This document shows, one piece after another, positions 1,231 through 33,165 of a stretch of 64,000 nt of DNA. The stretch's first letter is position 1. Each line of letters begins with the position of its first letter. Where the stretch lies: positions 1 to 64,000 of the forward strand of contig VFJK01000154.1 of NCBI GenBank assembly GCA_009886125.1, written 5' to 3'. The DNA is from Geobacter sp. (GTDB lineage Bacteria > Desulfobacterota > Desulfuromonadia > Geobacterales > DSM-12255). The position numbers and the translations under genes are program-made. The notes under the pieces are model-generated. The model saw nothing but the letters and a program-made list of their open reading frames with translations, was not told the DNA's origin and did not search any database.

Positions 1231-1400
1231 TGAATCAGTGACAGTGAGAACCGTATCGAACGGAAACAGCCGGGGCTCATCGCCGCCTGTGCAGTATCAA
1301 TATTATCCGCCGGATAATCTGTGCCGACCAGCATGCAACCTCCAACTCCGTAAAAGCAGAGGCGCTGCAGTGAGAGACGGCTCTCACCGTCACTGATTCA
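1231..1400. repeat. 170-nt foldable element, copy A (hypC-hypD spacer)
   Basis: The ends (1231-1254 and 1377-1400) are complementary over 24 positions with only two A.C/G.U differences. The interior carries a local hairpin CCGT-ATCGA-ACGG at 1251-1263. A second copy lies at 32969-33135. The two share an identical 27-base block (1251-1277), the motif GCAGTATCA, and the right-hand AGGCG/TGCAG/GAGAGACGG series. The right arm overlaps the end of hypC, including its stop codon. It could be a structured RNA, a REP/MITE-like repeat, or both. It matches no riboswitch family I know. Confidence 0.7.
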
Positions 1401-5630: not shown

Positions 5631-5706
5631 CCAACCCCCCTCAATCCCCCCTTGACAGGGGGGAAGCCTTGAAGTCTCCCCTGTCAAGGGGAGATTTAGA
5701 GGGGTT
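5631..5706. repeat. G/C-rich intergenic palindrome, copy 1
   Basis: Contains CCCCCCTTGACAGGGGGG followed by TCCCCTGTCAAGGGGA, framed by CCCCTC and GAGGGG. Similar palindromes occur at 12513-12590 and 20049-20137, all in spacers upstream of minus-strand genes. This suggests a dispersed palindromic repeat family rather than gene-specific terminators. Confidence 0.7.
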
Positions 5707-20048: not shown

Positions 20049-20137
20049 ACCCCTCCAAACCTCCCCTTATCAGGGGAGGCTTAACTTCCCCCCTGACAAG
20101 TACCCTCTGGGGCATAAAGGGGGATTGAGGGGGGTTG
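20049..20137. repeat. G/C-rich intergenic palindrome, copy 3
   Basis: Includes CCTCCCCTTATCAGGGGAGG and then CCCCCCTGACAAG...GGGGGATTGAGGGGGG, bounded by CCCCTCC and GAGGGGGG. Same family style as the repeats at 5631 and 12513. It lies between glcD and glcF and could lower glcF expression or stabilise the upstream message. Confidence 0.7.
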
Positions 20138-27630: not shown

Positions 27631-27650
27631 TATAATTCTGCTGCATTCTG

Positions 27651-27696
27651 TAATAAGAAAAGGCGCTGTCCGGATGGGCAGCGCCTTTTCTTATTA
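27651..27696. terminator. Bidirectional terminator between hppA and vapC
   Basis: Perfect 18-bp stem TAATAAGAAAAGGCGCTG with its complement, 10-nt loop, T-rich on both sides. It serves the convergent hppA and vapBC transcripts. Confidence 0.88.
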
Positions 27697-27741
27697 CGGG
27701 TTAATTCCTTGATAGCAACCTAATATTGAACAGGCATCCGG

Positions 27742-31633: not shown

Positions 31634-32899
31634 TCAGGAGGATTTCAGGGCTTCGACCCTTTTCTGGAGAACAAACTCCGATCTTTTTGACGGCTTCATC
31701 ATTTCAATTGTCAGAGGGTCGATACCAAGATCAGCCGTATTCATCCCCGCAACCGCCACTGCCCGTTCCCACCCCTCCATGCAGTTATTTCCCGGCTTGT
31801 CAGCCCCTGAGATCAAGGGGACGAGATCAGTGATGCCGGCCCTGATCGCCTGCTGTGCCATCCGTATCCTCGTTGACTGTCTCAGCTCATCAAGCCTGTT
31901 TGCATTGCCATGAAGGCGGCTGATAGCGGCAAGCGCCCGACCATAATCAGCAGGGAGTGAAAGCCGCCTGCAAAAATCTTCAGCGACCCTGAAACCGGCT
32001 TCATCATGACCATGATGCTTCGGGTATAGAGACGGGTCAGTAGAGAGTTTCCCGATATCGTGAAAAAATGCGCAGAACCTGGCCAGCGGGGAAGAGGAGA
32101 GAGAGGTAACCCTTTCGAGAACTTGCAGTGAGTGGCTCAGCAGGTCTCCTTCGGGATGGTACACCAAAGGGCCGGCCGGTATCTCCGGCATCCGGAACAG
32201 CTCGGGCAACCAGAGACGTCCGACATCAAACTCCAGCATTTTCTGAAAGAAACGCCCCGGTTCCGGAGCTGAAAATGACTTCAGCATCTCCCGGGCGAAA
32301 CGCTCGGCAGGAATACGCATCAAATCTTCATCCCAGTTTTTTGCACGAACGATCTGCCCTGCTTCAGATGCAATTCGAAAGCCTTCCGATTCCAGGCGCA
32401 AAGCTCTGAAAATACGGAGAGGATCGTCGGAAAACGAGTTTTCGCTGCAACAGCGTAAGGAGAGGTTTTTAAGATCGCCCTCTCCCTGAAGCGGATCAAT
32501 AAGGAGCCCGTCAATTGTCATGAGCATTGCGTTGACCGTGAAATCCCTTCGTCTCAGGTCGTTCACCAGACCATCTTCATGGTCTATCAGGGTTATCTCG
32601 ACATTACCGAACCCGCTGAAATGCCTGAACCAGACTGCAACTGCATTCCGGGAGATGACCTGACTGAAGCCCTTTGATTCGAGCAGAGCCGCAGGAAGAG
32701 CAGCGACCAGATCGATATCCCTGATCTCCCTCCCCAGAAGCGTGTCTCTGACGCTCCCGCCGACAAGCCAGACCTTTCCGATCAACTCTGCCGGAAAGAG
32801 CTGCCTGAGAAAGCTGCCGACCACCTCTATGCTGTAGTCCCGCCTGTTTTTAGTGACCACTGATACTCCGTTCAGCAATTTATGCAACTGTACCATCAT
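31634..32899 (-). CDS. CCA tRNA nucleotidyltransferase / poly(A) polymerase family with HD domain
   Basis: Adds or repairs the 3'-CCA of tRNA, or adds A residues. The 421-residue protein has the class II nucleotidyltransferase head (WLVGGSVRDTLLGREIRDIDLV with the G-S and D-x-D metal motifs), the neck motif LRRRDFTVNAM, the DPLRIFRALRLES motif, and a C-terminal HD domain (FFHDIGKL). CCA-adding, A-adding and C-C-adding members cannot be separated confidently by reading. It ends four bases from the convergent coiled-coil gene and is divergent from uvrD. Confidence 0.9.
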   Translation of the reverse strand: MMVQLHKLLNGVSVVTKNRRDYSIEVVGSFLRQLFPAELIGKVWLVGGSVRDTLLGREIRDIDLVAALPAALLESKGFSQVISRNAVAVWFRHFSGFGNVEITLIDHEDGLVNDLRRRDFTVNAMLMTIDGLLIDPLQGEGDLKNLSLRCCSENSFSDDPLRIFRALRLESEGFRIASEAGQIVRAKNWDEDLMRIPAERFAREMLKSFSAPEPGRFFQKMLEFDVGRLWLPELFRMPEIPAGPLVYHPEGDLLSHSLQVLERVTSLSSSPLARFCAFFHDIGKLSTDPSLYPKHHGHDEAGFRVAEDFCRRLSLPADYGRALAAISRLHGNANRLDELRQSTRIRMAQQAIRAGITDLVPLISGADKPGNNCMEGWERAVAVAGMNTADLGIDPLTIEMMKPSKRSEFVLQKRVEALKSS

Positions 32900-32968
32900 G
32901 ATTCTTTAAGGCAACAGTACCACTCTTTGGGATGGAAAACAGCGCTCATATCTGCTAATACTTTTTCC

Positions 32969-33135
32969 TGAACCCGTGACGGCGAGAGCCGTATCGAACG
33001 GAAACAGCCGGGGCTTCCAACGATGGAGTTGCAGTATCAGATAATGATCCGTAGGGGCCAACCGCCGGGAATACACCTATTGGTGCAGAAGCGGAGGCGT
33101 TGCAGAGAGAGACGGTTCTCACCGTTACGGGTTCA
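32969..33135. repeat. 170-nt foldable element, copy B (cca-uvrD spacer)
   Basis: Second copy of the element at 1231-1400. Arms 32969-32992 and 33112-33135 pair over 24 positions with three wobble or mismatch sites. The 27-base block at 32989-33015 is identical to copy A. In the outer stem, T-A and A-T pairs of copy A become C-G pairs here, so pairing is kept while sequence changes. It ends about 30 nt before the uvrD start and would lie in the uvrD leader if transcription starts upstream. Confidence 0.7.
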
Positions 33136-33165
33136 GATTTTTGGAAGAAAAAAACAGGGATAATC

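Follow-up and report, generated by a model that had tools for sequence, protein, structure and literature searches.

A probable MITE-like element with a covarying hairpin fold in the genomes of Geobacter and related bacteria

Two copies of a sequence of just over 170 bp with complementary ends lie at separate places in a 64,000-nucleotide stretch of a Geobacter genome (hereafter the window), and the question raised by this locus is whether such a sequence is a structured RNA kept by its host, a cis-acting regulator or a repeat that moves. Copy 1 occupied positions 1229–1402 (174 bp) and copy 2 positions 32967–33137 (171 bp), both on the + strand. The 24-bp complementary ends that a sequence-only reading had described in both copies were present, forming a closing stem (P1) with its arms at 1231–1254 and 1377–1400 in copy 1 and at 32969–32992 and 33112–33135 in copy 2, and the identical internal block of 27 bases was likewise real. 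Interior to P1 were a conserved internal loop, a helix P2 (AACAGCC/GGCGTT, with a bulged A), a 3 x 3 purine-rich loop (GGG/AGA) and a helix P3. In copy 1, on the + strand, the two strands of the internal loop were ATCGAACGGA (1255–1264) and GCAGTGAGAG (1367–1376); the 5' strand of P2 (AACAGCC, 1265–1271, with A1268 bulged) was partnered by 1361–1366 and the 5' strand of P3 (GCT, 1275–1277) by 1355–1357, with the AGA loop at 1358–1360 between the two 3' strands. The apical region (1278–1354) varied by subfamily. Both window copies folded far better than their shuffled counterparts, with z scores of −5.1 and −6.9.

Copy 1 was found between hypD (118–1209, − strand) and a small hypC-like gene (approximately 1405–1620, − strand), and its flanks held no target-site duplication. 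This insertion is old and predates a species split, because a genus-mate, G003, also has a copy at the identical hypC-hypD junction (L067/L053, interrupted by a contig end). In two relatives the hypC-hypD junction (L068 and L069, upstream of hypD) was occupied by an insert of another kind, carrying GAGGCGGGCGGGGGCTTTCCCGG towards one end and GGAAGTCTCCGCCCGCC towards the opposite end. This is apparently a further inverted-repeat element, and the junction resembles a hot spot. Copy 2 lay between a gene of the poly(A)-polymerase/tRNA nucleotidyltransferase type (31634–32899, − strand) and a helicase gene of the uvrD/pcrA type (+ strand). It was bordered by TTTTT on the left (32962–32966) and by a matching direct repeat on the right (33138–33142), in the register of the 5-bp target-site duplications seen elsewhere, these being homopolymers of low information. 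Elsewhere in the window a strong hairpin at 27646–27701 (+ strand) scored 23.9 bits with the element model, the interior being deleted; it probably represents either a terminator or a remnant made up of the arms alone.

Using copy 1 as the query, about 40 copies were located in the genome of origin (G000; 3.57 Mb in 192 contigs). A first covariance model, built from 39 copies, gave matches in 28 of the 141 genomes of the order Geobacterales, several of them with at least 10 copies, and a second model, built from many genera, was positive in 38 of the 141. In the full tally of 40 genomes in 16 genera, two entries were weak hits (26–27 bits) in the class outside the order, which were treated as chance; with the second model, 395 genomes from across the phylum gave no credible match in the rest of the class or phylum. 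A plasmid collection held no match to the element, and a 15-mer of its end occurred once each in 25 viral contigs, which was likewise taken as chance. Nearly all of 97 full copies were 171–176 bp in length. The outcome, many copies with covarying stems and varied neighbours, is the one that the sequence-only reading had named in advance as the mark of a repeat-type sequence.

When 51 copies were examined, 48 proved to be intergenic, and their orientation relative to the neighbouring genes was mixed. Such placement speaks against a riboswitch or other cis-regulatory RNA, which would be expected to keep one strand and one position ahead of the gene that it regulates. The earlier statement that no known riboswitch class fits held, since no family in Rfam 15, which also covers transposon-associated RNAs, reached its gathering score in the window and 16 loci gave no credible E-value even at relaxed thresholds. 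The family appears not to have been catalogued previously, although it is possible that its sequence was listed without analysis among the Geobacter multicopy families.

Evidence for movement came from the ends. Outside the element's own genus the termini were nearly invariant (CCTGAATCCGTGACG.../...CGTCACGGATTCAGG), and in G028 the pattern CTGAATCCGTGACG, allowing at most one mismatch, was found 26 + 24 times as against 0 for a reversed control pattern. An exact, in-register 5-bp target-site duplication bordered 22 of the 97 full copies (0.6 expected), and an in-register 4-mer duplication 30 of the 97 (1.2 expected); the majority of copies had no exact duplication, and within the element's own genus alone the signal was weak before the termini had been defined in other genera. 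Filled and empty orthologous sites were found twice: the site of insertion L168 in G120 (duplication ACAAT) was empty in G122 and other sister species, and that of L226 in G028 (duplication ATTTAT) was empty in G120. In G123, where the L168 site is empty, the same intergenic site (L324) was seen to carry differing repeat inserts among sister species, one of which contains GCGGCGTAGCGCTGCTACGCC, resembling the motif GRCGTAGCGCTGCTACGCC of a Geobacter short-RNA family (PMC2700814). The element is thus short and non-coding, with terminal inverted repeats, target-site duplications and both filled and empty orthologous sites, as in MITEs. Because of the 5-bp duplications and the two empty sites in sister species, it is probably a MITE-like, non-autonomous mobile element and not a riboswitch or cis-regulator. 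The original suggestion of a conserved structured RNA or mobile repeat stands insofar as the element is both conserved in structure and mobile; its cis-regulatory variant is disfavoured by the mixed orientation and by uncompensated losses of pairing.

The fold, comprising P1 and the inner helices, is strongly supported. Compensatory changes between the two window copies, noticed at the outset, were present and were far outnumbered by those among approximately 48 copies. In an alignment of 39 copies all 24 outer pairs of P1 (own genus) showed at least one two-sided change, and 27 of 33 pairs in the structure had such changes, a number reached in 0 of 500 shuffles; the whole structure held 128 two-sided cells compared with 33 in shuffles, and the covariation score of 0.351 fell to 0.160 on shuffling and below 0.10 when the partner strand was slid. 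An alignment of 45 sequences from many genera gave 93.7% paired cells, two-sided changes in 21 of 28 pairs (0 of 500 shuffles as high) and a covariation score of 0.323 as against 0.140 for shuffled data. The outer limit of P1 was sharp in the own genus: Watson-Crick pairing ran at about 0.6–0.9 to position 23, was 0.37 at position 24 and beyond it dropped to the background of about 0.27. The two short inner helices covaried across genera. In P2, GCC/GGC was replaced by GAC/GTC in L039 and single bases had been lost from both strands in L022 and L042, while other genera had different sequences that were still complementary (AATGCC/GGCATT and GGAAGAGCC/GGCCTTCC).

The sequence-only reading had also proposed two alternative folds, in which the CCGT of the identical block pairs either with a local ACGG or with the distal one. 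The short hairpin can be drawn, but it showed 0 two-sided changes and a covariation score equal to that of shuffles; where the 5' arm had changed, for example from CCGT to CCGG or CCAT, it was the distal arm that changed with it and not the local ACGG.

Across four groups G.U exceeded A.C on the + strand by 153 to 54, and in P1 alone by 116:65 (about 1.5:1), although part of the excess is one polymorphism per group, the copies are related and the set of pairs had been chosen on the + strand; among changes between orthologs the figures were 12 to 14. Like the conserved inner helices and loops, the excess favours selection acting on a single strand in its folded form, although the G.U counts are no more than suggestive.

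Changes between insertions were then set against changes within one insertion, using independent pairs with an interior identity of at least 0.75 and counting changes in P1. Copies at different sites differed by 62 paired two-sided and 143 one-sided changes (62/205), whereas orthologous copies in different species differed by 0 paired and 18 one-sided changes (0/18; Fisher p = 0.004). A stricter re-count without two mis-registered pairs gave 38/122 and 0/14 (p = 0.04). A looser comparison, of L167 with L225 and L257 (flanks 78–91% alike), did show a two-sided change; this may be a counter-example if these copies are truly a single insertion. Resident copies thus decay one side at a time, and paired changes arise as the element passes between sites: during movement either the fold is preserved or one arm serves as the template for its partner. 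The constraint could act on RNA or on single-stranded DNA, or it could reflect arm-to-arm copying. Copying, which has been documented for other hairpins (PMC8794818), is favoured by L168, where a 3-bp insertion in one arm is mirrored in the other, and by two-sided changes that are often transversions, which cannot pass through G.U. Faster evolution of the arms than of the interior between sites was hinted at by a few close pairs and was not significant overall.

Several rival explanations of the element were weighed. A dispersed structured RNA kept by the host, acting in trans or in cis (an sRNA or regulatory leader) and selected for its stems in every copy, would produce the strong covariation, the conserved loop sequences and the one-strand G.U excess, and the hypC-hypD copy older than a species split agrees with it. 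Such an RNA is improbable in view of the mixed orientation to genes, the accumulation of exclusively one-sided, pair-breaking changes in orthologous copies, the duplications and empty sites that mark insertion, the lack of an Rfam match and, as a weak test, the finding that copy 1 has neither a promoter-like nor a terminator-like site. Alternatively, the element could be a plain MITE whose inverted repeat is homogenised at any time by template switching in replication (quasi-palindrome correction), so that its covariation has no selective meaning. Template switching can fix stems in a single event (PMC8794818; assays in E. coli, PMC7202029), and would yield the mirrored insertion in L168, the many two-sided transversions and a 46-bp perfect palindrome derivative (G000:C174:18873–18918). 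It should, however, strike resident copies as well, yet none of the 18 arm changes between orthologs was two-sided and paired; it also leaves unexplained the G.U excess and the conservation of P2, P3 and loop sequences across genera, and it is regarded as possible though doubtful.

Another possibility is a REPIN-type element that a RAYT (Y1) transposase moves in the form of single-stranded DNA. The layout of inverted conserved ends, a hairpin and compensatory stem changes is shared (PMC3116915), and the order has genes of the RAYT type. No examined RAYT locus carried the termini, and the distribution of RAYT genes did not follow that of the element. Target-site duplications of 5 bp are not expected of Y1-type transposition, and with these duplications present this route is highly improbable. 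A further reading is a folded single-stranded intermediate, RNA or single-stranded DNA, in which one arm is rebuilt from the other before a transposase-like enzyme inserts it with a 5-bp duplication; this combination is put forward as an unlikely proposal. To our knowledge, foldback copying joined to DDE-type integration has not been described for bacterial MITEs.

With the element read as a MITE-like mobile repeat, a course of events can be sketched. The element, constant in length at about 174 bp, would be mobilised in trans; the enzyme responsible would recognise the CCTGAATCCGTGACG termini and cut the target with a 5-bp stagger. Mobilisation would pass through a single strand (the + strand as drawn) folded back on itself into the 24-bp closing stem P1, the purine-rich internal loops, P2 with its bulged A, P3 and a replaceable apex. 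This fold would either be needed for mobilisation or rewrite one arm from the other, which would yield paired changes between insertions, and after insertion each copy would have no selected function and would decay.

The CC...GG end and the 5-bp duplication suggest a DDE-type enzyme, and candidates for the mobilising partner were searched. A PF13701 (IS1380-type) partner was absent from nine of ten genomes searched, and PF01609 (DDE_Tnp_1) was absent from the copy-rich G028 and G120, the corresponding element in G126 having other ends. Genes for PF01797 (Y1/RAYT) occurred in bearers and non-bearers alike, with flanks that lacked the termini: a scan of 30 RAYT loci gave two hits at three mismatches, compared with 2.2 expected by chance. 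The signature of an autonomous element, a pair of termini 1–3 kb apart, was not seen in G028 or G126. A composite transposon was considered for copies lying in pairs about 1.3 kb apart in G028 and was rejected, as in the two cases whose reading frames were checked the genes between two ordinary copies were those of the host, one alcohol/quinone dehydrogenase-like and one of the radical-SAM menaquinone type, and outside the elements the segments had no sequence in common.

Derivatives of the element were observed in the genome of origin. The apical region of L016, L017 and L031 had given way to a further repeat common to all three (CAACCCCCCTCAGTCCCCC...GGGGAGATTTAGAGGGGTTTG), the point of replacement being almost identical although the remaining interiors differ; relatives of this repeat lie in the window at 5678–5704 and 20050–20076. 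The 46-bp near-perfect palindrome mentioned above (L346:273–319) consists almost only of the P1 arms and may have arisen by foldback copying or by deletion between the arms. At L041:1589–1943 two copies in opposite orientation are separated by 5 bp; one is highly diverged but has complementary arms of its own. At L045:1–1690 a truncated copy with the 5' half only lies just upstream of the start of an rnr-like (RNase R-type) gene.

The element is best placed among the small mobile hairpin-forming repeats of bacteria (PMC2229807), and the behaviour of its stem resembles that of REPINs (PMC3116915). Like ERIC/IRU of enterobacteria, it is small, intergenic and non-coding, forms a long imperfect palindrome whose transcripts are expected to fold, and occurs in several genera; ERIC measures 127 bp and has TA ends (PMC2229807), whereas the present element is about 174 bp and GC-rich, with CC...GG ends and non-TA 5-bp duplications, which sets it apart from ERIC. 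YPAL/RU-2 of Yersinia is similar in size (about 168 bp), intergenic location, lack of TA ends, target-site duplications and filled and empty sites, but has duplications of 3 to 26 bp and internal inverted repeats (PMC2229807) in place of terminal repeats with a 5-bp duplication. Correia/NEMIS of Neisseria likewise has inverted repeats at its termini, some 24 bp long, and a transcript that folds; it differs in its TA ends and AT-richness, and an inner core conserved across an order is not described there (PMC2229807). REPINs, which move with RAYT, have inverted conserved ends, a hairpin of set length and common compensatory changes, with the fold tied to mobility, and their ends match sequences beside RAYT genes (PMC3116915). 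The hairpin with compensatory changes is common to both, whereas in the present family the RAYT loci scanned lack the ends and 5-bp duplications are present. Geobacter multicopy families are likewise intergenic and palindromic and come from the same bacterial group, and in the portions of those reports consulted no analysis of fold, duplication or mobility was found (PMC2700814, PMC2996986).

The small mobile hairpin elements of bacteria thereby gain a well-delimited family that spans an order. Paired two-sided changes between but not within insertions provide an unusually clean comparison, which makes it testable whether folding, or copying from arm to arm, belongs to the act of moving. There is also a caution here, as the covariation by itself would have been accepted as proving a host RNA gene. 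In annotation, the family accounts for many of the odd palindromes between genes, and of the contig breaks, that are met in genomes of the Geobacter type.
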